A stretch of DNA of 64,000 bases from positions 62,001 through 126,000 of the forward strand of contig JAAFJO010000003.1 in NCBI GenBank assembly GCA_013298145.1. The letters run 5' to 3'. The position numbers were made by a program, and so were the translations under genes. The notes beneath the pieces are model-generated. The model was not told the origin of the DNA, made no database searches, and was given only the letters and a program-made list of their open reading frames with translations. The stretch comes from Betaproteobacteria bacterium (GTDB lineage Bacteria > Pseudomonadota > Gammaproteobacteria > Burkholderiales > Casimicrobiaceae). Positions 7,138 through 57,973 of this stretch are shown here, in pieces. Numbering within the stretch: the stretch's first letter is position 1; the number at the start of each line of letters is the position of its first letter.

Positions 7138-7614
7138 TTGATTGAGTTTCGTCAGGTTGACCGGTTTACTGAGCCTGCGTTTTCGTCAATGCAGCGCGAG
7201 GTGTTCGCGATCATTCCTGGTGCCCGCGTCGCGTCGCAATCCACGGCGAAAAGCGAAGTCACGCATCGCTACATTCACTTCGACCCGGATGCGCAGAAGG
7301 TACGAATCGGCGCGTTCGATGCAGTCCAGCTCGTGGGATGGTCGATTGGGTGGCAGCTAACGCCCGAGCGGTTTTATATGTCGAATTCTGGCGTCGTAGC
7401 GCGTTACCAGCGCCGAGGAATCTATTCGCACTTGGTTGCGCAAATGCTTGACGCGGCAGCGGCGATGGGTTGCAGTGAAGTTGTTTCACAGCACTTACCT
7501 GACAACCGCGCGGTGCTTGAGGCTAAAGCGAAGCTCGGGTTCGTGCGCGACGGCTTCTGTTTTTCCGACGAATTTGGCGAAATGGTTCGGCTTCGCCACT
7601 CGCTTAGAACGTAG
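7138..7614 (+). CDS. GNAT-family N-acetyltransferase
   Basis: Predicted acetyl-CoA-dependent acetyltransferase of 158 residues. The acetyl-CoA-binding motif A is visible as VVARYQRRGIYSHLVAQMLDAAAAMG (R/Q-x-x-G-x-G/Y type), followed by the typical NRAVLEAKAKLGFVRDG motif B. The start must be TTG at 7138, since an in-frame TGA lies only three codons upstream and no ATG occurs early; a weak AGCAGGA ribosome site lies about 11 nt before it. It starts 44 nt after purL and may be read through from it. The substrate cannot be predicted. Confidence 0.75.
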   Translation: MIEFRQVDRFTEPAFSSMQREVFAIIPGARVASQSTAKSEVTHRYIHFDPDAQKVRIGAFDAVQLVGWSIGWQLTPERFYMSNSGVVARYQRRGIYSHLVAQMLDAAAAMGCSEVVSQHLPDNRAVLEAKAKLGFVRDGFCFSDEFGEMVRLRHSLRT

Positions 7615-7665
7615 CGCCGCACGCATGCGCTCCTCACATCATAGACGACTGCTCCGAACATTTGA

Positions 7666-7749
7666 CCCATATTTTATTGGGACAAAATGCGAGAAAATGT
7701 CATTAGCAATACGCTAGTAAATCGTACGCTAGCCCCAATAAATTAGGCG
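7666..7749. repeat. Dispersed intergenic element, copy A (46-nt-spaced hairpin/TAGCCC family, diverged)
   Basis: Hairpin CCCATATTTTATTGGG (7666-7681) is followed by TAGCCCC at 7730-7736, 48 nt after the last G, or 47 nt if the diverged A at 7682 is taken as the usual C. Other copies at 16.4, 29.5, 54.6 and 57.8 kb share the layout with a 46-nt gap. It lies between two convergent genes (GNAT and glnD), so a transcript-end role is possible. The downstream arm is degenerate here (AATAAATTAGGCG). Confidence 0.55.
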
Positions 7750-7801
7750 ATTCAATAAAAAGGTTAAACACATCACGCTTGTCTCGATGGCTGCGAGCGG
7801 A

Positions 7802-10345
7802 CTAAGCGATGGCTTCCGCAAGTTCGGTTTCAATGGCAATTCGTGTTGACTCTTCGGCGAGTCGCCCCCCGGAGACCACAAACACGTCTTCAGCGCGCCC
7901 CCCGAGGGTATTGACGCGTGCAGTTTCGATGGATACGCCACGCTTGGCGAGCACATCAGCGATGCGTGAGAGGAGCCCCGTACGGTCTGCCGCGACGATT
8001 TCAAGTGCGAATCGTTGCCCCAACTCATCGCCCACAATTTCGATGCGCGGCGCGATCGGAAAGCTTCGCTGTTGCCGCGTTGGCTTCCCGAGCGGCGCAG
8101 GGACGCCGTCCCCTTTTTCGCTGAGCGCTTCCGTGATGTCATGTTCAAGAAGCTGGGTCACATCGCGATACGCAAATTTTGCAGACCCCGGATTCACCAC
8201 GGTAAACGTATCCAGTGCGTAGCCGATTTTTGAGGTATGGACCCGCGCGTCAAGCACCGAAAAGCCTAAGCGCGCGAACACGCGCATGACGCGCGCGAAG
8301 AGGTTAGGCTGGTCATGCACATAAACCATGACTTGAAGCCCCGTGCCCTCTGACATCAGGCGAGTTTTGACAATCGGTGTTTCGTCGTCAAACCGCCAGA
8401 ATAGATTTCTCGCATGCCACGCCATCTCATCTGCGCTGTGGCGTTGCAGGTATACCGAATCAAGTGTTCGCCAAAATTTCTCGGCTCTACTCACGTCGAT
8501 CGCGTAAAGCGAAAGCAGGCGGCGCGCTTCGCTCATTCGATCAGCGAGCATGTCGAAATCACTCGCGCCACCCATGCCACGAAAGTGCGACATGGTTGAG
8601 CGATAGAGCTGCTCTAACAGGCGGGCTTTCCAGTTGTTCCACACTTTGGGCGAGGTGCCGCGAATATCAGCAACGGTGAGTAAATAGAGCGCGACCAAGC
8701 GCTTCTCATTCCCGCACAATACGGCGAATTCGCGCACCACAGCCGGATCGGCAATATCCTTTTTCTGGGCGATGGATGACATCGTTAGGTGGTGTTGCAC
8801 GAGCCAGGCGATGAAATCAACGCTCTCAGCGGAGAGGCCTAAGCGGGATGCAAAGTCTCTCGCATCGACCGTACCTAAATCGGAGTGATCGCCGCCACGA
8901 CCTTTCGCAATGTCGTGGAAGAGGCACGCCAGATAAAGCACCTCTTTTTCAGGAAACTCTTGCATCAATTCAGAGCACAACGGATATTCATGCGAATGCA
9001 CTGGATCGGCGAAGCGCCGCATATTTCGCAGCACCATCAAGATATGCTGATCCACGGTGTACACATGAAACAAATCATGCTGCATTTGCCCCACAATGGG
9101 CGCCCATGGAGGAATGAGTTTGGCAAGCACGCCGAGCTCGTTCATCTCTTTAAGCGCGTGATAGATCCCGTGGCCCGCACTTAAAAATTCACGACATACG
9201 GTTCGACACTCATCGGTGGAGAAGGCGTCTTCCGACAACATGGCAGTCGATGCATAGATTGCGCGCCGGAGTGCGGGGGTGAAGCGATCAAACGCACGAT
9301 CACGGTAGAGCAATCGAAATGCGTCAAGGATTTCAAGCGCGGTCAGTCGTGTATTCGCATCAGCGATGTGCAGATGGTCAGAGAGCGATGCAAAACGAGT
9401 ACCTTCAATCGCGCTGGCTTCAGCTTTCCGCTCGACAGTCAGCGAATCGATCAGGATGTCATTGAACAATCGTAAGCGGCGCGCAGATTGATAGTAGCGG
9501 CGCATCATGATTTCGCTAGCACGAAGCCCTTTGGTGGCTTCGACGCCGAGCGCTTCTGCAAGCGCGGCTTGCAGTTCATACGCCAATCGATCTTCGCGGC
9601 GCTTCGCGATCACATGAAGCCGCGCGCGCAAGAATTTCACTTCGTCATAGGCGATTTGCAGCGTTTCTTTTTCTTCGACCGTCAATAGTTTTGCGCTACA
9701 CAGTCCTTCCAGCGAATCGATACCGTGTAACGCGCGTGCAAGCCACAACACCATTTGCACATCACGAAGCCCGCCAGGACTTTCTTTCAGATTCGGCTCA
9801 AGGTTATACGCTGTGTCTTGAAAACGAGCGTAGCGCTGCTGTTGCTCAAATCGCTTCGCATTCACGAAGTGGGGGACATCAAAGCGCTTTGCCCACGCGC
9901 GATCAAGTGAAGTGGGCGCATCGCTGCTGGCGTGGAGCACGCGACGCTCAAGCAGCGCCGTGGCGACCGTCACATCGGCTTGCGCTTCAGCAATGCATTC
10001 CTCGACCGAGCGAACGCTATGCCCGATTTCAAAGCCTAAATCCCAGGCATCGCTCAGGAAGCCTTGGATGCCGGGAATCGATTCGACTTCGATGTTGTCG
10101 TGCAGAAGTAGCAAATCAACATCTGACGACGGATAGAGCTCCACGCGGCCATAGCCACCGACCGCGAGTAGCGCGAGTGGCGTACGGTTTAGTTCATGTT
10201 TGTGCCACTGCGCGATCAGTACGTCGTCGACCACGAGCGCATGCGCGCGAAGTGCTGCATCGACTTGATCCGGCGCTTGTAGCGCGTCGAAAATTAACGC
10301 GCGCTGGCTACGGTAGTTGGCGCGAAGTTCGGCGAGCGTTGACAT
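7802..10345 (-). CDS. glnD: PII uridylyltransferase / uridylyl-removing enzyme
   Basis: Bifunctional sensor of glutamine that uridylylates PII proteins under nitrogen limitation and removes the group when glutamine is plentiful. The 847-residue protein has a nucleotidyltransferase site GGYGRVELYPSSDVDLLLL (residues 63-81, catalytic Asp75 and Asp77), an HD hydrolase domain with LACLFHDIAKGRGGDHSDLG in the middle, and two C-terminal ACT domains (for example VMVYVHDQPNLFARVMRVFA and ALEIVAADRTGLLSRIADVL). The start is the ATG at 10345; an upstream reading to 10462 would overlap map. It lies 35 nt after map, as in many proteobacteria. Its target, a PII gene with Tyr51, is at 63.1 kb. Confidence 0.96.
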   Translation of the reverse strand: MSTLAELRANYRSQRALIFDALQAPDQVDAALRAHALVVDDVLIAQWHKHELNRTPLALLAVGGYGRVELYPSSDVDLLLLHDNIEVESIPGIQGFLSDAWDLGFEIGHSVRSVEECIAEAQADVTVATALLERRVLHASSDAPTSLDRAWAKRFDVPHFVNAKRFEQQQRYARFQDTAYNLEPNLKESPGGLRDVQMVLWLARALHGIDSLEGLCSAKLLTVEEKETLQIAYDEVKFLRARLHVIAKRREDRLAYELQAALAEALGVEATKGLRASEIMMRRYYQSARRLRLFNDILIDSLTVERKAEASAIEGTRFASLSDHLHIADANTRLTALEILDAFRLLYRDRAFDRFTPALRRAIYASTAMLSEDAFSTDECRTVCREFLSAGHGIYHALKEMNELGVLAKLIPPWAPIVGQMQHDLFHVYTVDQHILMVLRNMRRFADPVHSHEYPLCSELMQEFPEKEVLYLACLFHDIAKGRGGDHSDLGTVDARDFASRLGLSAESVDFIAWLVQHHLTMSSIAQKKDIADPAVVREFAVLCGNEKRLVALYLLTVADIRGTSPKVWNNWKARLLEQLYRSTMSHFRGMGGASDFDMLADRMSEARRLLSLYAIDVSRAEKFWRTLDSVYLQRHSADEMAWHARNLFWRFDDETPIVKTRLMSEGTGLQVMVYVHDQPNLFARVMRVFARLGFSVLDARVHTSKIGYALDTFTVVNPGSAKFAYRDVTQLLEHDITEALSEKGDGVPAPLGKPTRQQRSFPIAPRIEIVGDELGQRFALEIVAADRTGLLSRIADVLAKRGVSIETARVNTLGGRAEDVFVVSGGRLAEESTRIAIETELAEAIA

Positions 10346-11317: not shown

Positions 11318-12136
11318 TCAATCTCGAAGCAATTCGTTAATCGACGTTTTGCTACGCGTCTTCGCGTCAACTTGTTTCACGATCACCGCGCAGTACAGGT
11401 TGTATTTCCCGTCGGTAGATGGCAACGATCCGCTCACGACCACCGATCCGGACGGCACCCGACCATACAACACTTCGCCCGTGGCGCGGTTGTAAATCTT
11501 GGTGCTTTGGCCGATGTAAACACCCATGCCAAGCACTGAGTTTTCTTCAACGATCACACCTTCAACGACTTCGCTGCGTGCACCGATGAAGCAGTTGTCT
11601 TCGATGATGGTGGGGTTGGCTTGAAGTGGTTCAAGTACGCCACCGATGCCTACACCTCCCGAAAGATGAACGTTCTTGCCAATCTGTGCGCAAGAGCCGA
11701 CGGTGGCCCAGGTGTCAACCATCGTGCCTTCATCGACGTATGCGCCGATGTTGACGTAAGAGGGCATCAGCACCACGCCCTTCGCGAGGTACGAACCACG
11801 GCGCGCAACGGCCGGTGGCACGATGCGCACACCAGCCGCGCGAACCTGCGCCTCGTCCAGATGCGCGAATTTGGTCGCAACCTTATCGAAGAACGCAAGA
11901 TCTCCCGCTTGCACGAGCGCGTTGTCTTTAAGGCGAAACGAAAGCAGCACCGCTTTCTTGATCCACTGATGCGTGACCCACTCGCCGCCAATTTTCTCGG
12001 CGACGCGCACACGCCCCTTGTTCAAATCGGAAATCACGTGTTCGACGGCATCGATCACGTCTTTCGGCGCGCTGGAGGGAGAAAGGCTCGCGCGGTCTTC
12101 CCACGCTTGGTCAATAACTGCCTGTAATGTACTCAT
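11318..12136 (-). CDS. dapD: 2,3,4,5-tetrahydropyridine-2,6-dicarboxylate N-succinyltransferase
   Basis: Succinyl-CoA-dependent step of the succinylase branch of lysine/diaminopimelate synthesis. The 272-residue protein has an N-terminal helical domain followed by a left-handed beta-helix of hexapeptide repeats ([41 protein letters not shown] is read in the reverse strand as consecutive segments of such repeats). The length equals the family norm of about 274. dapC, whose product acts next in the pathway, lies immediately upstream (23 nt), so the two probably share a transcript. Confidence 0.96.
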
Positions 12137-12152
12137 AACTTATTCGCGATTT

Positions 12153-12170
12153 GCCCAATTTAATTGGGGC
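12153..12170. repeat. Single GCCC/GGGC hairpin at dapC stop (copy B)
   Basis: GCCCAATTTAATTGGGGC (12153-12170) is an 18-nt near-perfect palindrome followed by TAG, matching the first hairpin of the 46-nt-spaced element family. The second TAGCCC box is not seen. It overlaps the stop codon of dapC, so it lies in the short gap between dapC and dapD. Confidence 0.5.
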
Positions 12171-13371
12171 TAGATTCAAAAAAAGAAGTAATTCGAGAAA
12201 CTGCTTCAGCGCATTCCTTGCCCTCAGAAACCAAGGCGATGCGGACGAAAGCTTTTCCTGGATTTTGTCCGTTTGCAGCAGTGCGGGAGAGATAGGAGCC
12301 GGGAATCACAGTGACGCCGGTTTTTTCAAAGAGCAAACGCGTAAACGCTTCGTCGTCGTCGCCAAATTTCGCGGGGATGGGAAGCCACCAATAAAACGCT
12401 GCCTCTGGCATTTCAATCGCGGTGTGCTTTTGCATGAGCGGCGTAAGCTCGCGAAACTTCTTTGCGTACTCGGCGCGATTTGCCACCACATGCGCTTCGT
12501 CGTTCCACGCTTCAATACTCGCTGCGGCGACCGTTGCCGACATCGCCGAGCCGTTGAATGAACGAAGCTTCAAAAACGCAGCGATGAGTTTTGCATCGCC
12601 CGCAACAAAACCTGAGCGCAAGCCCGGCGCGTTGGAGCGCTTCGAGAGCGAGCCCATCGCGATCAAATTTTTGAAATCTGTGCGGCCGAGTTCTTGCGCC
12701 ACTTCTAGTGCGCCGTGCGGCGGATTGGCTTCATCGAAGTAAATCTCGCTGTAACACTCATCGGCGAGGATGGCGAAACCGTAGCGATCAGACAGCTCAA
12801 AAAGTTTCTTCCAGCGCGCCTTTGCCGTGATGTGACCGGTTGGATTGTCTGGCGAACAAACAATGAGCAATTGGACGTTCGACCAAACAGTTTCCGGCAC
12901 ATGATCCCACGCGTATTCGCCAGTCTTCGCATCGAAGTTCACGTAGTACGGTTGCGCGCCGCAGAGTGTCGCTGCGCCTTCGTAGACCATGTAGAACGGA
13001 TTCGGCACCAGAATCGTGGGATTCGGTTGGGTCGGATCAACAATCAGCTGCGTGAACGAATAAATCGCCTCTTTGGTTCCCACCACGGGCAGCACCTGAG
13101 TTTCAGCGTCAAGCGCGGCGAGTTTGAATCTGCGCTTGATCCAACCGGTGATTGCGGTTCGCAGCTCCGGTGAGCCTTTGGTCGGCGGATACTGTGCAAG
13201 GCCTATCGTGTTATTTGCGATAGCGTCGCGAATGAATTGCGGCGTCGGATGCTTGGGCTCACCGATGGAAAGATTGATCGGTTTCAATCCCGCAGGCGGC
13301 GTAACACCCGCGAGTAGTCGTGCAAGGCGGGTGAACGTAAATTCGTTGAGATTCGCGAGATATGGATTCAC
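12160..13371 (-). CDS. dapC: succinyldiaminopimelate transaminase
   Basis: Pyridoxal-phosphate aminotransferase that makes N-succinyl-L,L-diaminopimelate in lysine/peptidoglycan precursor synthesis. Its 403 residues show class I/II features: INLSIGEPKHPTP near residue 32, VVGTKEAIYSF, CSPDNPTGHITAK, ILADECYSEIYF and the Schiff-base lysine in MGSLSKRSNAPGLRSGF. The N-terminus MNPYLANLNEFTFTRLARLL is typical of the DapC family rather than the generic AspC or ArgD enzymes, and adjacency to dapD supports the call. The gene starts at 13371 and faces the divergent GspC-like gene across a hairpin-rich gap. Confidence 0.93.
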   Translation of the reverse strand: MNPYLANLNEFTFTRLARLLAGVTPPAGLKPINLSIGEPKHPTPQFIRDAIANNTIGLAQYPPTKGSPELRTAITGWIKRRFKLAALDAETQVLPVVGTKEAIYSFTQLIVDPTQPNPTILVPNPFYMVYEGAATLCGAQPYYVNFDAKTGEYAWDHVPETVWSNVQLLIVCSPDNPTGHITAKARWKKLFELSDRYGFAILADECYSEIYFDEANPPHGALEVAQELGRTDFKNLIAMGSLSKRSNAPGLRSGFVAGDAKLIAAFLKLRSFNGSAMSATVAAASIEAWNDEAHVVANRAEYAKKFRELTPLMQKHTAIEMPEAAFYWWLPIPAKFGDDDEAFTRLLFEKTGVTVIPGSYLSRTAANGQNPGKAFVRIALVSEGKECAEAVSRITSFFESSPN

Positions 13372-15670: not shown

Positions 15671-16384
15671 CTATTTGCTGATCGATTCGTTCGCAGCATG
15701 CACTGAATCCATCGGCAGCCGAGGCAACATGCGTAAGAGCTCAATCGGTTCATCAATCTCATGATCCGCGCCCCATGTGCGTGCGAGTGCGAGGTCTGGG
15801 ATGTAGCCGTAGGCCGCCAACACGCACGGCATGTTGCAGGCGATTGATGCCTTCACGTCGCTTTCGCCATCGCCTACATAGACGCAGTGTTGCGGCGAAA
15901 CGCTCAACGCTTCTGCCGCCGTGGTTAACGGCATGGGATGCGGTTTGGGCCACGGCGTTGTATCGCCACAAACGACGACCTGCGGTATGAACGCACGATC
16001 ACGCAGAAGCGCATCGATCATCGGCTCAGCCAAGCGCGAGTTCTTGTTCGTCACTATGCCCCAAGGCAGCGCGCGTCGCTCAATGGCCACCAAGAGTTCC
16101 AACACGCCACCAAAGAGGCGCGAGTTGTGCAATTTCCGCTCGCCGTAAATGGCCAAAAAACGTTGCCGATTCTGCTCATAGTCATCGTCACCCGGCCCGA
16201 GCCCGAGCGCGACTTTCACGAGACTGCGCGCGCCGTAGGTCGCGAACGGGCGCAGCGCTTCGTACGGCAGAGGCTCCATTCCGTGTTCGATACGCAAATC
16301 GTTCGCAGCGCCTGCGAGATCGGGCGCGCTGTCTACAAGCGTGCCGTCAAAATCGAAGAGGATGGCGTGAGGAGAAATTAGCAA
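15671..16384 (-). CDS. gph: phosphoglycolate phosphatase (HAD family)
   Basis: HAD hydrolase of 237 residues that dephosphorylates 2-phosphoglycolate formed by DNA repair and oxygenation chemistry. Motif I is ILFDFDGTLVDSAPDLAGA near residue 8 with nucleophile Asp; motif II/III are GIVTNKNSRL and KPHPMPLTTAAEAL; motif IV is YVGDGESDVKAS. The C1 cap helices lie between residues 20 and 90. The start appears to be TTG at 16384, because no ATG or GTG occurs upstream before an in-frame stop. It follows ubiG with a 114-nt gap holding a repeat element, and the ubiG-gph order is common in betaproteobacteria. Confidence 0.9.
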   Translation of the reverse strand: MLISPHAILFDFDGTLVDSAPDLAGAANDLRIEHGMEPLPYEALRPFATYGARSLVKVALGLGPGDDDYEQNRQRFLAIYGERKLHNSRLFGGVLELLVAIERRALPWGIVTNKNSRLAEPMIDALLRDRAFIPQVVVCGDTTPWPKPHPMPLTTAAEALSVSPQHCVYVGDGESDVKASIACNMPCVLAAYGYIPDLALARTWGADHEIDEPIELLRMLPRLPMDSVHAANESISK

Positions 16385-16399
16385 GCTCTAGCTTTCAAC

Positions 16400-16484
16400 G
16401 CCCTATTAACTCAGGGCTAGACATCAATTAAAGAAATTAATGAAAGAAGTATTTACGTGGTTCTAGCCCGAACAAATTCGGGCT
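16400..16484. repeat. Dispersed intergenic element, copy D (both hairpins intact)
   Basis: GCCC (16400-16403) pairs with GGGC (16414-16417) around a 10-nt loop. Exactly 46 nt later TAGCCC begins at 16464, and AGCCCGAA/TTCGGGCT (16465-16484) forms a perfect 8-bp stem with a 4-nt loop. This is the most complete copy in the window and lies between ubiG and gph, inside an operon. Confidence 0.75.
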
Positions 16485-16498
16485 CTAATCCACAAAGC

Positions 16499-17212
16499 TT
16501 ACGCAGATTTCACGCTGCTCACGATGTAGTTCACCTGCGTATCCGATTGCCATTTCGCCACATGCGTGAAAGGGTTGTAATCCATGCCGCGCAAATCGGT
16601 GAGTGTGAGTCCCGCGTTCTCCGCGAAGCCGATCAATTCGGACGGCTTCAGAAACTTCGAATACTCATGCGTGCCCTTAGGCAGCAGACTCAACACGTAT
16701 TCCGCGCCGAGTACGGCAAACACATAGGCTTTCGGCGTACGCGAAATCGTGGAAAAGAAGAGGTGGCCGCCGGGTTTCGCGAGCGTTGCGCACGCGGCGA
16801 CCACGGCCTTCGGGTCCGGCACGTGTTCAAGCATTTCAAGGCAAGTAACCACGTCAAATGTGCCCGGCGCTTTCGCGGCCATTTCCTCTGCGGTTGCCTC
16901 GCGGTAATCAATGTCCACGCCGCTCTCAAGTGCATGCAGCTTTGCAACGGAGAGCGCCTTTCCGGCCATATCCACGGCTGTGACTTTCGCGCCCATCTTC
17001 GCCATACCTTCGGACACCAGCCCGCCGCCGCAGCCGATATCAATGGCTGCTTTGCCTTTCAGACCACCAACAGTCTTGTCGATCAACTCAAGCCGCAGCG
17101 GATTGATATCGTGAAGCGGACGAAATTTGCCGTTCGGATCCCACCATTGACTAGCCAGCTCAGAAAACTTGGCCAGTTCGGCGGGGTCGGTGTTTTGTTT
17201 GGAAGATTGCAT
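16499..17212 (-). CDS. ubiG: 3-demethylubiquinol / polyprenyl-dihydroxybenzoate O-methyltransferase
   Basis: SAM-dependent methyltransferase that carries out both O-methylation steps of ubiquinone synthesis. The 237 residues begin MQSSKQNTDPAELAKFSELA (UbiG usually starts near NVDxxEIxKFxxLA), followed by WWDPNGKFRPLHDINPLRL, the SAM motif AIDIGCGGGLVSEGMA and VTCLEMLEHVPDP. The ATG at 17212 is preferred over a GTG at 17227. The gene is followed by gph and, upstream, by the 1336-residue secreted protein rather than directly by the usual mtaD-like gene. Confidence 0.96.
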   Translation of the reverse strand: MQSSKQNTDPAELAKFSELASQWWDPNGKFRPLHDINPLRLELIDKTVGGLKGKAAIDIGCGGGLVSEGMAKMGAKVTAVDMAGKALSVAKLHALESGVDIDYREATAEEMAAKAPGTFDVVTCLEMLEHVPDPKAVVAACATLAKPGGHLFFSTISRTPKAYVFAVLGAEYVLSLLPKGTHEYSKFLKPSELIGFAENAGLTLTDLRGMDYNPFTHVAKWQSDTQVNYIVSSVKSA

Positions 17213-17313: not shown

Positions 17314-20300
17314 TTAGTTCAGATACAAGCTGCAACTACCCGATAGAAACGCTCGAACTTGATTCCAGTCGGTGCGAATTGCGTTCGGACCGATGGCACC
17401 GTCGGTAACCGCGTCGCCCTGGAAACCGAGTAGAACGCGTAACAGCATCAGACCGTCCGTGCCCGGAGTGACCTGCCCATTGCCGTCAAGGTCATAGCTG
17501 GAGATTGATATCCGGCTCGTGATCCCGGCGGCTGAGAGCGGTACACAGCGGTGCGTCGCACCCGCGAGTAACGCATCGCCAGTTAACCCGAGCATGCGGC
17601 GAAGAATGATGACACCGTCGGTTCCCGCGAGTCGCGCACCGTCACCGTCGACGTCAAGCCGGCAGCTACCGCTGTCGTACGTCCAATTGCCAGTTGAATT
17701 GAACTGAACGACGCCGCTGACGTTACTGAAAGAAAACGGAGAGCCTGGCGTTACGTAGGGGCCACTGCCCGGTATGAAAAACACTTGCCCAGACATGCCG
17801 ACAGGTCCAGTGCACTGCCACTCGTATTGCTCGGTATCACTGCTGCACACAATCCCTGGGTTCGGTGAGCAAACAGATGCACTGTAAGGCAGCGAATTGC
17901 CGCGCACCACAGCGCCTGCGACCAGGGTAACGCTTCGAGTGACCGATTGCGCCGGTAGCAGATCATCGTTGCCCGCAAACGAGAACGTGATTGAGTGAGT
18001 GCCCGCGCCCAGTCCTGTGACCTCACATACAAAATAGCGGTCAGGTTGATCAAAACTTGAACTGGTGTTGCCGCGAGTAGATGAGCATGACCCCGCTGAC
18101 ATCGATACGTCCGCAGCGTTCAGGTAAGGGACGAGGTTGAAACTGCTAGGCGTGCGAAGCTTCACTTGGAAGCGGACGCGATCACCTGCAATCCCGGCGT
18201 TGCGCGGCTCTTCGATCACCGCAAGCGTTGGTTGCGCTTTAGCGATGCTTGGCGCCGCCCGCTGGGTCGTTGAATTGGCAACTTCACTAGAGTTACTGAC
18301 GAAAGAGGCCGTAACGGGGAACGCGGCCGTGCGCACCAATAGCTCACAACGTCGACGCGAGATTTCGTTCGCAGAGACCAATGGCGAGGTGCAATTTCTG
18401 ATGGATACGTTGTCCGCGGCGGTTGGGTCGTAAACATATCCTGCAAAGTTCAGCGGAAGGACAGCCGGTGACGTCGCGACTGCGTCAAGAACGCGGACAT
18501 CATAGGCAGTAAACGACGTGCCTGGGGTGATACCAATTGTCGTGACGCTTGGCGCTTGCACAAACGTAAGGGGCGCTGAGTACCCTGCGGGCATTCCGTC
18601 GCTCCACGCGGATAGTGCAACACCTGACTCCACGCGGTTGTAGATGAGGCCGGATACGTCACATTCAGACGCGCCTGCTGCGATGGTGCAAGTCAACGGT
18701 CCACCGAGATTCCCGCTTCCCGCTGCAAGCGCGATGCGCGCAACCCGCGCTGAGGCTGCGACTACGGGCTGATCCAGCGCGTCTCGCAGGCTCAGTCGGA
18801 CGCTAAACGGCACGCGGAAGCCAATCGGATTCGACGGAACTTGCAGGAACTTGATTCGCTGGGTTGAGGCGACCCCCGCTAACGAAATCTTTCGCATCGT
18901 CACGAGTGAGTTTTCGAATTCGTTTCGGGGAGACTGCCCGAGCACCACTAAGTTGCCCGTCTCATCGAAGGCCGCTACCGCATCATTGGCAACGGGGTTT
19001 GACAAGAGCTGACCGTCGCGCCAGCGCTCTGCGCCACTGGCAGAAATCGACCACAGTTGCGGCACGCCACTCGCGGCGGAAATAACGGAAATCGAGTTGC
19101 CAGCATTGTCAACCGCGATCGAGGTGACACAGTCCGCGCTGTCGCCCGCCAAATCCGCGTATTGGCTCCATCGCTCACTTCCCGCCGCAGTCCAAGACAC
19201 AAGCATTGAATTGGCTGTTGAGTCGCGAGCATCGCTCTGCTTTGCGCTGCACCCACCCGCATACAAATTCCCAGCCGTGTCTTCGGCAAGCGCCTTCAAC
19301 GCGACGTAAGGGCGAATAAAGTCCCCCGAGACGATTCGCTGCCACGCGATCGCGCCGTTCACCGCGATCCGAAACACCCGTCCCTCCCCGCAAGACTGAG
19401 TGCCGATCAAGATGTCATCATTGATCAATTTTCGGGCCGCGACCAGCGTATCTGTGCAGGTTGGAATGTCAATCAGCGTCGTCCAAAGTACCGTGCCAGT
19501 AGGCGAAACTTTGACCACGGCGGGCGTGTTGTTCGAGTAAACGACCCACGTATTTCCGGCGCTATCCTTGGCCGCGAATTGCGGCTCGGATTGATTGGTG
19601 AGCACTTCAAACCCGATTGCGCCTGACGCGCTGACGCGGCCGACCAAGTTTCCAACCGCGTAGGTTGTCTCGCCACTTCCCTCCGTAATTTGAACCCCCG
19701 CACGATTCGACGAATACGTGGTGGGACTCAGTTGCCCGTTTACCTGCCATTCGGTAAGGCCGCCAGCGGTCAATTTTTTGGCTCGTGCGAAGGCATCAAA
19801 ATTGACTACGATTTGCCCACCATCGTCGGCCATGGGAAAGCCACAGCCATTTGCTATCCCGGGTGATCGTCCCGCCGCCGAGCCATCGCTTGCGGTTCGC
19901 CCCAACCAACGCGGCAGCCAGCTCGGGAACGAGTTCGGCTCAACAATGTTGGCGGAACGCCCCCACCAAGCGTCCGGGCTCGACTTGGTCAGCTTGGGCA
20001 TCAAGCAAGCCGTAGTGTCAGTCATCTGCGCGGCTCGACGAAACTTCGCTTCGTGAACCCAGCGCTCGGGCGCGGTCGGGCGCAGAAAAACAAGGGTTGC
20101 GGCAAGCGTATCGGGGAACTGCCCCGAGGAGATGTAGTCTCGTTGAAACGCAGCAATCATGCCGTTAGCCGCAGGAAACCATGCGTTCGCCGCAAAAGCG
20201 TCGTTTCGTGTGTAGATGAGCGGCGTTCCGAGCGAGCCGTTCGCCGTAGAGATCGGGAAGATGAACGAATCGGTAACGCCAGCGCCAACATCCGTACGTA

Positions 20301-21324
20301 TCGCGCTCAAGCTGGTGCCAGCTTGCACAATGCGTGACACCCGCGACAAATGCTTCTGCCAGGCGATGGTGCCCGCCGATGTCAGGCGCGCAAGTTCGCT
20401 GCCTGCGTCTGCCGATTGGCCTTCTCGCGCCACGATCACATCGTCGGCCCCTTCTGCAAAGAGCCCCACAATTTGCGTGCTGCTGAACACGGTTGTTGGA
20501 AACGTTACAGTCCGCAACCAGGCTCTCGATCCGTCTGCACGATAACGCGCGACGCTCGCAACGACTGCGTTGGATGTTTGCATCTCGTTAAGCAGAAAGA
20601 CGAATTCACCATTTGCTCGAGGAATGAGCGTGCGCAAGTTTGCGGGGTTTTGAGAAGTGTTTGCGGTGTCCAGAACTGCACCGCTTGAGATAAGCACGCC
20701 ATCGGTCGCTCTGCGAACGGCGAACCAGCCGCGACGAAGCTCTAGGTAGTTCCCAGCGGAATCAATTTGCGCGGCTAGTGTGGTGCGGTAACTTGACTGT
20801 GTTTCGGTTACCGTCCAACGGATTGCGCCATCCGCTGCGCGCTTACTCACGAATCGATCGTAGTCACCCGAAGCGAATATCAAGTCGCCATCTGCAGCTT
20901 GCGTGACTGAGGCGTTGGATGTAAGTCCATCCAAACAGTACCGCGCGCGGGGTGTGCCGTTACTCGTAAAGTTAGCAACACACAGCGAAGAGGAATTGTC
21001 TCCAAGCACGACTTGGCTTACGGAGCCATCCGCGTGGCTAAACAACGATTTGGCGCAATCGAGCGGCGAGCCGTCTACCCAGCGCACCCATACCGCTTCC
21101 CCTGTGGGCGAGAGCTTTGCTACACGCACGCGACTCACGTCGGTGGCAACGAGTACTGCGCTAACGTAAATCGCGCCCGCGTCAGCGTTCACAATCGCCG
21201 TGCGATGGAGAGGCATGGGTTCCTCAGGCGGATTGAGCGCCGTGTTCCAAAGCACTTGTGCGCTTACTGCGAAAGAGAGCGCAAGCGCCGCGCATGCGAA
21301 GAATGCTCGCATCAAAAACATCAT
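17314..21324 (-). CDS. large secreted protein with propeller-like repeats, Ig-like domain and C-terminal dockerin-like repeats
   Basis: A 1336-residue exported protein of unknown function. The N-terminal signal peptide MRAFFACAALALSFAVSAQ is cleaved after SAQ. From about residue 50 to 870 there are many short repeats of the kind GAIRWTV, GTIAWQKHL, GTVLWTTL, GAIAWQRIV, GSERWSQY, typical of PQQ-like or WD-like beta-propellers. Around residues 1060-1170 is an Ig-like segment ending SVTRSVTLVAG. The last 116 residues (1221-1336) contain two dockerin-like calcium loops, LDVDGDG...GTDGVIILRRMLG and YDLDGNGQVTPGTDGLMLLRVLLG. The gene lies between mtaD-like and ubiG. The same C-terminal module occurs in the glycine-rich protein at 45-47 kb. 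Confidence 0.75.
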   Translation of the reverse strand: MMFLMRAFFACAALALSFAVSAQVLWNTALNPPEEPMPLHRTAIVNADAGAIYVSAVLVATDVSRVRVAKLSPTGEAVWVRWVDGSPLDCAKSLFSHADGSVSQVVLGDNSSSLCVANFTSNGTPRARYCLDGLTSNASVTQAADGDLIFASGDYDRFVSKRAADGAIRWTVTETQSSYRTTLAAQIDSAGNYLELRRGWFAVRRATDGVLISSGAVLDTANTSQNPANLRTLIPRANGEFVFLLNEMQTSNAVVASVARYRADGSRAWLRTVTFPTTVFSSTQIVGLFAEGADDVIVAREGQSADAGSELARLTSAGTIAWQKHLSRVSRIVQAGTSLSAIRTDVGAGVTDSFIFPISTANGSLGTPLIYTRNDAFAANAWFPAANGMIAAFQRDYISSGQFPDTLAATLVFLRPTAPERWVHEAKFRRAAQMTDTTACLMPKLTKSSPDAWWGRSANIVEPNSFPSWLPRWLGRTASDGSAAGRSPGIANGCGFPMADDGGQIVVNFDAFARAKKLTAGGLTEWQVNGQLSPTTYSSNRAGVQITEGSGETTYAVGNLVGRVSASGAIGFEVLTNQSEPQFAAKDSAGNTWVVYSNNTPAVVKVSPTGTVLWTTLIDIPTCTDTLVAARKLINDDILIGTQSCGEGRVFRIAVNGAIAWQRIVSGDFIRPYVALKALAEDTAGNLYAGGCSAKQSDARDSTANSMLVSWTAAGSERWSQYADLAGDSADCVTSIAVDNAGNSISVISAASGVPQLWSISASGAERWRDGQLLSNPVANDAVAAFDETGNLVVLGQSPRNEFENSLVTMRKISLAGVASTQRIKFLQVPSNPIGFRVPFSVRLSLRDALDQPVVAASARVARIALAAGSGNLGGPLTCTIAAGASECDVSGLIYNRVESGVALSAWSDGMPAGYSAPLTFVQAPSVTTIGITPGTSFTAYDVRVLDAVATSPAVLPLNFAGYVYDPTAADNVSIRNCTSPLVSANEISRRRCELLVRTAAFPVTASFVSNSSEVANSTTQRAAPSIAKAQPTLAVIEEPRNAGIAGDRVRFQVKLRTPSSFNLVPYLNAADVSMSAGSCSSTRGNTSSSFDQPDRYFVCEVTGLGAGTHSITFSFAGNDDLLPAQSVTRSVTLVAGAVVRGNSLPYSASVCSPNPGIVCSSDTEQYEWQCTGPVGMSGQVFFIPGSGPYVTPGSPFSFSNVSGVVQFNSTGNWTYDSGSCRLDVDGDGARLAGTDGVIILRRMLGLTGDALLAGATHRCVPLSAAGITSRISISSYDLDGNGQVTPGTDGLMLLRVLLGFQGDAVTDGAIGPNAIRTDWNQVRAFLSGSCSLYLN

Positions 21325-29311: not shown

Positions 29312-29476
29312 AGCGTTTTCTTCGTAACGTCGGTTCTTGCAAAGTCGGTCGAACCGTTAACGTATGCGTGTGATTGAGCTGGGATCGTAGGGCTCGTGCA
29401 TGACATCTCGATCATCGATAACGTGAAGCGCTTCCCGAAAATCAGTCACAGTATCGTCTAATAAACCATGTATTAG

Positions 29477-29548
29477 GCCCCATATAAGATTCGGGCTAGC
29501 GACGATATTTGTATCGTATGGAAAAATAGCAAAGGCGCGATCTAGCCC
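29477..29548. repeat. Dispersed intergenic element, copy E
   Basis: GCCC (29477-29480) pairs with GGGC (29493-29496), and TAGCCC begins at 29543, with exactly 46 nt between. GGGCTAGC at 29493 and CTAGCCC near 29542 also form long-range inverted arms. It lies between divergent acnA and vapB. Confidence 0.65.
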
Positions 29549-29600
29549 TATTTAAATGGATGCTTCAGCTATTTTGTTGTTGTACTTTGCGCTTCCGAAT

Positions 29601-29898: not shown

Positions 29899-30306
29899 AT
29901 GATCGCAGTAGATTCATCAGTGTTGATCGACATCCTGAATAACTCCGCACGCGCGGAAGTGTCAGAGGCAGCGCTTCGCCGTGCGCTCGAAAAAGGGCCT
30001 GTCGTGATGTGTGACGTAGTCGTTGCCGAAGTGTGTAGCGCGCTGATGCAACCTGATGAAGTGCAGCAAACGCTGGAAGAACTGGGCATTCAGTATTTGC
30101 CGATGAAGCAAACGGCGGCCGCGCGCGCTGGCGAAATGCAGAAACGCTACCGTGATCGCAAAGGAACGTATCCGCGCGTGCTACCCGATTTTTTGGTGGG
30201 TGCACACGCGATGATGCAATGCGAGGCGCTCATCACACACGACGGCGAATTCGTTCGTGACTATTTCAAGGGGCTCAAGGTGATCGTGCCTTCAGAGCTG
30301 CAATGA
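29899..30306 (+). CDS. PIN-domain toxin (VapC-like ribonuclease)
   Basis: A 135-residue PIN-domain endoribonuclease. The acidic metal-binding residues are all visible: Asp5 (MIAVDSSVLIDIL), Glu44 (VVVAEVCSALM), Asp96 (VLPDFLVGAHA) and Asp114 (ALITHDGEF). The targets of VapC toxins are usually tRNA or rRNA; this one is not known. It forms a module with the antitoxin 6 nt upstream and precedes acnB by only 28 nt on the same strand, so the aconitase may be transcribed from the TA promoter. Confidence 0.88.
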   Translation: MIAVDSSVLIDILNNSARAEVSEAALRRALEKGPVVMCDVVVAEVCSALMQPDEVQQTLEELGIQYLPMKQTAAARAGEMQKRYRDRKGTYPRVLPDFLVGAHAMMQCEALITHDGEFVRDYFKGLKVIVPSELQ

Positions 30307-33025: not shown

Positions 33026-33451
33026 TTATGACAGTCGATACGTCTCGAGATGAATACTCGTCTCCGTATTCGCGATGCCTTTGAGCAGGCGAATACGTTC
33101 GAGCACTTTGGCGAGGTCTTGCAGGTTTTCGGCGCGGAGCTCGGCTAGTAGATCCCAGCGGCCGTTGGTGTCTACGAGTGTTGCGACGCCGGGTTCGCCC
33201 ATGAGATTGGCGATCACTTCGCGCGTGCGGTTTCCATCAACAGCAATACTTGTCCAAGCCTTAATTTGCTCGGGCTTAACGTCAGGTCTTAACTTTATTG
33301 TGTAACCCACAATAATTCCGTCCTGTTCCATTTTGGTGAGGCGGTTAGTCACGGTGCCGCGAGAGACTTTCAGTCTCGCCGCCAACGTGGCGATGCTTTC
33401 GCGAGCGTTTTGCCGGAGCAGTGCAATGAGCTTGTGATCGATCTCGTCCAT
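33026..33451 (-). CDS. Lrp/AsnC-family transcriptional regulator
   Basis: A 141-residue feast/famine regulator. The winged helix-turn-helix is MDEIDHKLIALLRQNARESIATLAARLKVSRGTVTNRLTKMEQDGIIVGYTI, here read as MDEIDHKLIALLRQ followed by LAARLKVSRGTVTNRL, and the RAM ligand-binding domain begins about residue 65, with TSIAVDGNRTREVIANLMGEPGVATLV. It is divergent from the ornithine cyclodeaminase gene, with an inverted repeat between them, so it probably controls that gene in response to an amino acid such as ornithine or arginine. Confidence 0.92.
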   Translation of the reverse strand: MDEIDHKLIALLRQNARESIATLAARLKVSRGTVTNRLTKMEQDGIIVGYTIKLRPDVKPEQIKAWTSIAVDGNRTREVIANLMGEPGVATLVDTNGRWDLLAELRAENLQDLAKVLERIRLLKGIANTETSIHLETYRLS

Positions 33452-44796: not shown

Positions 44797-45254
44797 GGAC
44801 ACCTGATTGGATTCACTCTTTTGAAGCTCACAATCAGTCAAAAAAACTACGATATTTTGATTTTTGCTTGTATGAAAACTACATGCAACAACGGCGCAAT
44901 GAAATCGAGAAACTCGCTCTGAAAGCTTAGTCATGAGCGACAAACTAAAAACTCGTAAAACCAATATCTAACGGGAGCTAGAGTCGATTCCAATGAATAA
45001 CAAGAATAGAGAAAAACGCTGCCTTGTCTATGCCTAATAAAGTCTATACGCGAAGATGCAATAAGTAGAGCTTGAGAAAACTTGTTCGTGCAACCTGCTT
45101 GACCTACAGAACTACAACGTGCGAGCGGAGTTCAGCCCGCGTTGCCAAATGGCTTGGCTCGGCGTCGCGCCCTACATGCGTTCAACTTGTTCTGCTTGAC
45201 CCCTTCCGCGCGCCCTCGGACAATCCACTTCACGCGCCATATTTGAAGTTTTCC
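44797..45254. other. Divergent intergenic region edd / glycine-rich gene
   Basis: 458 bp, AT-rich near edd. The candidate HexR site (44869-44883) is the only regulatory motif I can place. A weak ORF extends from 45072 into the glycine-rich gene, but its first 61 residues look non-coding. No RNA gene seen. Confidence 0.4.
44869..44883. promoter_or_regulatory. Candidate HexR operator upstream of edd
   Basis: TGTATGAAAACTACA fits the HexR consensus TGTARTWWWAYTACA (as I recall it) at 13 of 15 positions, including both TGTA and TACA ends. HexR represses Entner-Doudoroff genes and is relieved by KDPG, and the site lies 73 nt before edd, so edd is its likely target. Confidence 0.5.
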
Positions 45255-54538: not shown

Positions 54539-54559
54539 AAATACAAATACTTCTACCTT

Positions 54560-54631
54560 GCCCCTATAAAATTGGGGCTAAGCGGCTTTTTATATTTAAA
54601 GTGATTTACGCAAGAAATGTGCGCTAGCCCC
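54560..54631. repeat. Dispersed intergenic element, copy G
   Basis: GCCCC (54560-54564) pairs with GGGGC (54574-54578) around a 9-nt loop, and TAGCCCC begins at 54625, leaving exactly 46 nt between. It lies between the DUF1178 gene and trhO, both on the plus strand. Confidence 0.7.
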
Positions 54632-54743
54632 GGTTTAACAAGAGCTTGGGTGTATACGCCAGCGCTCTTTGCTCAAACAATTACGAACGCCCAGCGTGAT
54701 CAATTTGACCTCGCGTCGCCGCCGACTCGTCGAAAATTGCGGA

Positions 54744-57383: not shown

Positions 57384-57782
57384 ATGAGCACGATTGCATT
57401 GATTGCCCACGACCGCTGCAAAGCGCAGATGGTAAGTTTCGCGCGGGAGCATCTTTCCGCGCTTAGCCCGCATCAGCTCGTCGCAACGCGCACCACTGGC
57501 GGGTTACTGCGATCAGAGGTGGGGCTTAACGTGCAGCAATTGCTTTCGGGGCCGCAAGGCGGCGATCTCCAAATCGGTGCAATGATCGCGGAGGGGCGCG
57601 TTGACGCCGTAATTTTTCTGCGCGACGTTCTCACTGCCCAGCCCCACGAGCCAGACATCTCAGCGTTGTTGCGCATTTGCGATGTTCACAACGTACCGGT
57701 TGCGACCAATCTCGCGACTGCACGCTGGGTGTTGAACGGGCTGCTGCAGCAAACTACGCAGCGTAAAGCAATCGCTTCATAA
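57384..57782 (+). CDS. mgsA: methylglyoxal synthase
   Basis: Converts dihydroxyacetone phosphate to methylglyoxal and phosphate, a glycolytic bypass when phosphate is scarce. The 132 residues contain [14 protein letters not shown], the phosphate loop [25 protein letters not shown], with the catalytic Asp61 of GGDLQIG, and His88 in QPHEPD. The ATG at 57384 gives the family length; an upstream reading to 57318 is not supported. It is followed by a repeat element and then the convergent enoyl-CoA hydratase gene. Confidence 0.93.
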
Positions 57783-57853
57783 CCCTGATTAAACGAGGGC
57801 AAGGCGCAATTTGGCGCGCATAACAATACGTTACCGATTTTGCTGTTAGCCCC
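57783..57853. repeat. Dispersed intergenic element, copy H
   Basis: CCCT (57783-57786) pairs with AGGG (57796-57799) in ACCCTGATTAAACGAGGGC, and TAGCCCC begins at 57847, 46 nt after the C at 57800. It sits immediately after the mgsA stop, between convergent genes. Confidence 0.65.
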
Positions 57854-57973
57854 ATTAAAAACTAGCCTAAAAGCGTGGAGTTATAGATTGAAACGGAGCA
57901 ACTGAAGCCCGGCTCGCGCCGCTCCATTCCGCAAACCAACCGAGCTCTTCGCGCTGAATCGCGACCTGCGGCG

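Follow-up and report, generated by a model that had tools for sequence, protein, structure and literature searches.

Bacterial chromosomes carry dispersed architectural sites, matS and parS among them, which are palindromic, present in many copies and read by a dedicated protein; matS and parS are single palindromes of 13-16 bp. Dispersed bacterial palindromes are often classed as mobile REP repeats. REPINs, for instance, are described as inverted REP doublets with nearly invariant ends and variable spacers of set length, in which compensatory changes are common and which have RAYT genes alongside (PMC3116915). The GTAG/CGTC-tagged REPs are extragenic palindromes, often in opposite pairs and mostly downstream of genes (PMC3733652). 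Finally, E. coli DNA gyrase has been reported to follow a 130-bp motif that is symmetric and in which G/C recurs every 10.75 bp, and its cleavage is enriched in BIME-2 elements and downstream of highly transcribed operons (PMC6379681).

Here, we describe a dispersed element, which we term the dyad, in a window of 64,000 nucleotides (C15:62001-126000) and in the source genome to which it belongs (4,127,361 bases in 21 contigs). We did not find a published element of this kind in the titles and abstract openings of a limited literature on intergenic palindromic repeats and dyad sites. The dyad resembles matS and parS in being palindromic, in its many copies and in its putative dedicated protein, and differs from them in that it is made of five boxes over 120 bp; among the matches listed for one congener, G038, it is spread over the chromosome. 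With REPINs and other REP doublets it shares an extragenic location, many copies, inverted palindromic arms and a variable interior of set length. However, its closest copies are no more alike than column-shuffled ones, its arms lack covariation, it does not cluster at Y1_Tnp genes, it keeps orthologous places, and the unit includes a conserved axis and outer boxes. Extragenic palindromes in opposite pairs, often behind genes, are also a trait of the GTAG/CGTC-tagged REPs described in PMC3733652, from which the absence of base-pair covariation in the arms sets the dyad apart. It is also similar to BIME-2 and strong gyrase sites, being ~130 bp long and symmetric about an axis, with alternating AT and GC blocks and often a place beside gene ends, but it differs from BIME-2 and the Mu strong gyrase site in its period (9.75-10.0 rather than 10.75 bp), its stricter boxes and its species-specific arms.

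The dyad unit is ~120 bp long and two-fold symmetric, with five boxes whose internal distances are nearly fixed. The axis reads TATCGATA or AAGTCGACTT, AT tracts lie near ±13 bp, palindromic arms are centred at ±33.5 bp and outer AAAGCT boxes lie near ±55 bp. In the source-genome logo, built from 98 half-sites of a 464-kb sample, TATC and GATA meet near the axis, followed by an AT block 11-15 bp out, an inner box GCTAGCCC ~21-28 bp from the axis, an AT core, an outer GGGG and AAAG(C/T)T at ~53-58 bp. The AT content is elevated out to ~65 bp from the axis, and the logos are symmetric. Two loci, L109 (530-600) and L110 (13520-13590), hold overlapping dyads with a common arm, which places arms every 67 bp, and the site may form short arrays.

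The copy at 16.4 kb in the window spans 16382..16502 (axis 16441.5, interior 48), with half-sites that score 24.4 and 25.1 by a matrix trained outside the window. It lies in the gap between gph-like and ubiG-like genes (NCBIfam), both on the - strand. The left palindromic arm, GCCCTATTAACTCAGGGC, occupies 16400..16417 and the right arm, GCCCGAACAAATTCGGGC, occupies 16466..16483 and includes what had been taken for a second 8-bp stem; the sequence and the logos place the right outer AAAGCT box at 16494..16499, ~55 bp from the axis. The original prediction, a GCCC/GGGC hairpin at a fixed 46-nt distance from a TAGCCC box, had put the element at 16400..16484. The element is real, and these coordinates cover only part of a unit of ~16382-16502. 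The TAGCCC starts at 7730, 16464, 29543, 54625 and 57847 and their gaps were found at the places claimed. The hairpin was claimed for all five copies; the strict pattern is present at 16400, 29477 and 54560, while at 7682 and 57800 the outer arm offers only CCC/GGG. The copy at 7682/7730 had been listed as an exception with 47 nt, but in the consensus register (7683/7732) its interior is 48 like the others (GGAC..GCCC). Likewise, the 46-nt interior, described as non-conserved, carries the conserved axis and the AT tracts.

At a score of 10 the window contains six inverted pairs, with an interior of 48 in five and 49 in one; the remaining inverted distances are -19 and -20 only, the palindrome of single arms. 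The copy at 7648..7768 (axis 7707.5, score 48.2) sits in a convergent gap between a + strand gene at 7189-7614 and glnD, which ends at 7802 on the - strand. A copy that had been missed earlier, at 12135..12255 (axis 12195, interior 49, half-sites of 31.2 and 16.3 at 12170/12220), overlaps the 3' end of dapC (12160-13371, - strand) and adjoins dapD, so part of this site appears to be translated. The copy at 29460..29580 (axis 29520.5, score 49.9) lies in the divergent gap upstream of acnA, and the orthologous gap in the congener G125 likewise contains a dyad; a promoter-side stretch near 29600 is also conserved in G125. Two further copies are found at 54542..54662 (axis 54602.5, score 48.4), in a tandem gap, and at 57764..57884 (axis 57824.5, score 50.3), in a convergent gap between genes for methylglyoxal synthase and an enoyl-CoA hydratase-like protein. 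Doubtful copies are found at 33240..33360, inside an ORF at 33026-33451, where one half-site is good (19.1) and its partner poor (-4.0), and at 44942..45062, where one half-site scores 12.8 and its partner -0.6. Among other features of the window, we observed a VapC-like toxin gene at 29899-30306, beyond the acnA-side dyad (NF047959, 55 bits, under the cut-off of 80), and a 1336-aa protein at 17314-21324 that only faintly matches a model for SBBP repeat lipoproteins of Leptospira (20.7 bits, against a cut-off of 400). No tRNA genes were found within the window.

Both the excess of these sites and their spacing are evident well beyond the window. A search of the whole genome on both strands, as the original prediction had proposed, gave 46 matches to GCCCN6-14GGGCN40-52TAGCCC against 6 for the reversed pattern, and GGGCTAN43-45TAGCCC was found at 46 places against 1 for its control. 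We then used a 42-bp half-site matrix, trained on 47 copies from outside the window, on a 464-kb sample consisting of the window and 20 stretches of 20 kb. Half-sites scoring at least 10 numbered 135, compared to 11 after one local dinucleotide shuffle. Between 0 and 150 bp, there were 25 inverted pairs, found at interiors of 47 (n=4), 48 (n=19) and 49 (n=2) only, with none in the shuffle, while the inverted distances below zero comprised 22 pairs at -17 to -20, which are arm palindromes, and one pair at -38. Given this excess and this single spacing peak, neither a lack of excess nor a spread of spacings, the outcomes that would speak against the original prediction, occurs. The sample contained 49 dyads scoring at least 14, against none in three shuffles, and a looser spacing penalty raised this to 54, or 11.6 per 100 kb, which extrapolates to ~480 per genome. 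All matrices were started from copies found by pattern, and for G125, G303 and the pooled high-GC species the scan covered the very sequence used for training. In three genomes of the same order (G118, G157 and G254), the GGGCTA/TAGCCC pairs listed look like GC-rich repeats of another kind.

The dyads are concentrated between genes, as the proposed check for enrichment in gaps had asked: 42 of the 49 source dyads fall in the 13.9% of the sample that no predicted gene covers, with approximate gene calls from our own simple hexamer gene finder. By gap type, 24 of the 42 are in tandem, 11 in convergent and 7 in divergent gaps, compared to ~24.5, 6.6 and 10.9 expected from the bases in such gaps (36,140, 9,665 and 16,128, respectively). 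Convergent gaps are thus somewhat over-represented and divergent gaps under-represented in the source, and the distribution is otherwise roughly proportional to gap length. In G125 the corresponding counts are 44, 11 and 12 (expected ~43.9, 8.1 and 15.0), and the pooled high-GC species have 7, 5 and 8. A dyad was found in 45 of 202 source gaps of at least 100 bp (score at least 12) and in 59 of 162 such gaps in G125 (score at least 10).

We searched for dyads in the relatives of the source organism. The genus is judged betaproteobacterial from the best-matching GlnD model and from aconitase relatives, which among the best matches listed are mostly Burkholderiales. Of its 17 draft genomes, the source included, 14 contain dyads or exact matches to half-site patterns, with G304, G306, G307, G302 and G310 counted from patterns alone. 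In G125, the nearest well-assembled relative, whose aconitase is 89% identical to that of the source, 83 dyads scoring at least 14 were found in 388 kb and none in the shuffle, by a matrix built from that very sequence; the consensus is TCGCCCAATTAAATTGGGCGA. Samples of G038, G309, G308 and G305 yielded 20 dyads (shuffle 0) with a consensus in which AAAGTC and GACTTT meet at the axis and the outer part is AAAAAGCTG. G303 has 36 dyads in 440 kb (shuffle 0), with arms AACGACCGnnnnCGGTCGTT, and G198 has 5 dyads scoring at least 4 in 60 kb (shuffle 0). G300 and G301, which were searched with patterns only, gave no evidence of dyads, and nor did G258. The pattern GTCGAC-N48-50-AAAAGCTG had 603 matches in 10 of the 17 genus genomes against 4 for the reversed control, and within the range searched, N48-50, the spacing was N48 in all but one of the matches listed. 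The source, G125 and G198 have another axis sequence and no match to this pattern. With a two-sided pattern allowing N47-51, the lengths of the congener matches listed run from 114 to 116 bases, which corresponds to a shift of the outer box by roughly one base on each side. A one-sided pattern (TCGA, GCCC, AAAGCT) gave few matches in six genomes, including 6 in the source against 1 for the control and 5 in G198 against 2.

Across 399 genomes of the order, the two-sided pattern was found in three, namely two congeners and one further genome with a single match; the control was found once in each of two genomes. In 47 genomes from 6 other genera of the family, GTCGAC-N48-AAAAGCT had 5 matches and its control 2. 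In the rest of the family and order, matches do not rise above chance, and diverged versions may still exist there. The high-GC matrix at a score of 4 found no dyads in 1.09 Mb of loci from other organisms (L123-L202).

Between species, the arms change in both sequence and length, on both arm sides, and the arm centres stay in place. The source arm is a palindrome of 19 bp with an interior of 48 and the G125 arm a palindrome of 17 bp with an interior of 49-50, so the arm centre lies ~33.5 bp from the axis in both; the arm centres of G303 likewise lie ~33.5 bp from the axis. The AT tracts on one side of the axis show a period of 9.75-10.0 bp (p 0.009) in the mean of four species-group profiles. 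Taken singly, two groups gave p values of 0.004 and 0.010, G125 gave 0.08 and the source 0.21, and AT power at 10-11.75 bp showed no excess over the null in any of the four. We used this one-sided analysis; a symmetric Fourier analysis gave 9.5 bp in all four groups, a value partly forced by the mirror constraint.

The most alike pair has an identity of 0.645 among 36 G303 copies, 0.516 among 33 source copies and 0.488 among 27 G125 copies, all within the column-shuffled range, and the copies within a genome show no clear common ancestry beyond the consensus. We also identified 12 distinct source dyads with flanks that match G125 stretches, of which L010, L030 and L095 were set aside because their left and right flanks mapped to distant places or to separate stretches. 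All nine of the orthologous gaps scored contain a dyad in G125 (scores 26.7 to 49.0, by a G125 matrix trained on the same stretches). Compared with the baseline of 59 in 162 gaps, the chance of this is ~1e-4 when gaps are treated as independent. The nine include L009, for which only the left flank matched, L093, which is ~2 kb longer in G125, and L108:389, for which only the right part of the gap was scored and the alignment shows little. By eye, the interior and flanks of the orthologous pairs align poorly, and the arm boxes remain in several pairs.

The original prediction had left three readings side by side, an RNA with two stems, a REP/BIME-like mobile repeat and a protein-binding pair at a fixed distance, and had added that the copies are not simple terminators. 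This last point agrees with the gap types, and since these roughly track gap length, divergent gaps included, a terminator role is not favoured. That the dyad acts at the level of the transcript, as a bidirectional terminator or a 3'-end RNA structure, seems improbable to us, although the position of the sites gives this idea some appeal: the axis lies 51-75 bp from a gene 3' end for 30 of 50 distances measured in the source (7 of 40 for 5' starts), in 20 of 66 in G125 (6 of 68) and in 3 of 17 in the high-GC species (0 of 23), and the source dyads lean to convergent over divergent gaps. We take this distance peak to mean that genes run up to the edge of the site and stop there, and a 3'-end role predicts the same. 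The so-called hairpin, however, is a palindromic consensus without base-pair covariation. The compensatory changes proposed as a test of its stems were not found, as arm pairing was no better than permutation in three genomes (p 0.79 in the source, 0.50 and 0.14) nor in source arms that do not begin with GCCC (p 0.58), and the two halves of the palindromic arm consensus vary independently among copies. Coupling across the dyad was absent in the source and G303 (p above 0.08). The centre of the G125 dyad is an exception, with an excess of coupling (p 0.002 when spacings are pooled, 0.0245 for spacing 50 and 0.44 for spacing 49) that a hairpin would explain; the pooled value may be partly due to mixed spacings, though the excess persists at spacing 50. 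Predicted folding is slightly better for the whole element than for its shuffles (mean z -0.92), but not clearly so for the interior alone (mean z -0.19), no Rfam 15 family matched the window at its gathering score, and the AT tracts of G303, which can be A or T on either side, are of the same type on both sides in 15 of 21 typed dyads (expected 12.4). An RNA hairpin, and with it the two-stem RNA, is therefore disfavoured, by the lack of covariation in the arms of three genomes and of coupling in two, with the G125 centre as the exception. Separately, near base 1500 of locus L071 (C15:188966-189021), a GGGCTAGA..TCTAGCCC-TTTTTT stretch follows what by eye appears to be a tRNA 3' end (CCA); this stretch, which falls within a dyad-like match, is likely an ordinary terminator.

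The main rival to an architectural role is a mobile origin, in which the dyad would be an old REPIN-like element, a pair of inverted palindromes spread by a RAYT-type Y1 transposase and since diverged or domesticated. We consider this unlikely, if less so than the other alternatives weighed here. Inverted palindromic arms at a fixed distance, an extragenic location and, by extrapolation, hundreds of copies per genome are all as expected of such an element, and the mean best match between copies is slightly above the column-shuffled mean in three genomes (0.597 vs 0.586, 0.471 vs 0.463 and 0.450 vs 0.442). However, the most alike pair stays inside the column-shuffled range in each of these genomes, which disfavours recent mobility, and the arms are neither nearly invariant nor rich in compensatory changes, unlike the REPINs described in PMC3116915. 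Y1_Tnp genes are present in 15 of the 17 genus genomes and absent exactly from G163 and G258, two small congeners of 2.5-2.6 Mb in which dyads are rare: in stretches taken without regard to dyads, G258 had none in 37 kb and G163 one poor hit (8.7) in 60 kb. Loss of intergenic DNA is another explanation for this scarcity, both genomes being small, and G163 has two clear dyads (66.5 and 56.2) despite its lack of Y1_Tnp. A high-scoring dyad lies within 1.5 kb of only 1 of 15 Y1_Tnp loci (L275, in G304), which is no more than dyad density alone would give, although some flanks were short and several species had no matrix of their own, so that dyads may be hidden; L223, L274 and L280 had low-scoring hits only. 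The mobile repeat is not supported in the form originally suggested, and the lack of both arm covariation and clustering at Y1-transposase genes makes an RNA hairpin and a typical REPIN alike improbable readings of the dyad. A somewhat more doubtful alternative than mobile origin, though one we rate above the transcript-level role, is that the dyad is a strong DNA gyrase site which, like BIME-2 and the Mu strong gyrase site, wraps around the enzyme and sets the level of supercoiling. Its 120-130 bp length, two-fold symmetry, alternating AT and GC blocks and frequent position just after gene ends are like the motif described in PMC6379681, and the cleavage specificity of type II topoisomerases is reported to vary between species (PMC12324340). 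The period of 9.75-10.0 bp is nevertheless not the 10.75 bp of gyrase, and the boxes of the dyad show a stricter sequence than the degenerate motif of gyrase. The Mu site does not stand out with the dyad AT profile: close to the annotated cut (17879), z reached 2.0-2.3 at the best axes, which ranked 384-891 of 36,590 positions, no better than with rolled control profiles.

These results favour the third of the original readings, a protein-binding pair at a fixed distance, which is supported by the dyad symmetry, the near-fixed geometry, the survival in orthologous gaps and the arms without covariation. The dyads are best read as sites maintained by selection and as candidate architectural sites. 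More specifically, we give about an even chance to the proposal that the dyad is the docking site of a putative symmetric protein complex that bends or wraps DNA and so organises the chromosome. Each arm would be read by a putative homodimeric protein: both halves of the arm differ between species yet vary independently among copies, so a homodimeric reader fits and a paired stem does not. The AT tracts ~10 bp apart may reflect bending or wrapping of the DNA around the putative protein, and the fixed distances of the dyad would be those of the complex. The role would then lie in chromosome topology rather than in the control of one class of genes.

A broader proposal, which we put forward only tentatively, is that the five-box 120-bp dyad represents a new class of chromosome site, found about once per 5-17 kb and wrapped by a putative genus-specific histone-like or condensin-like complex, and that its arm code has turned over in hundreds of sites while the scaffold stayed fixed, with sites and reader co-evolving. 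In place of the mobile history with which such palindromes are often credited, the likeness of dyads through their consensus only, their one geometry, their orthologous places and the joint change of both arm sides would be the trace of selected binding sites and their reader. The differing arm codes within one genus are a natural experiment, in which covariation of recognition residues should reveal the DNA-binding protein. If this reader wraps DNA, it would be either a new kind of architectural protein for the bacterial chromosome or a gyrase whose sequence preference is unusual.
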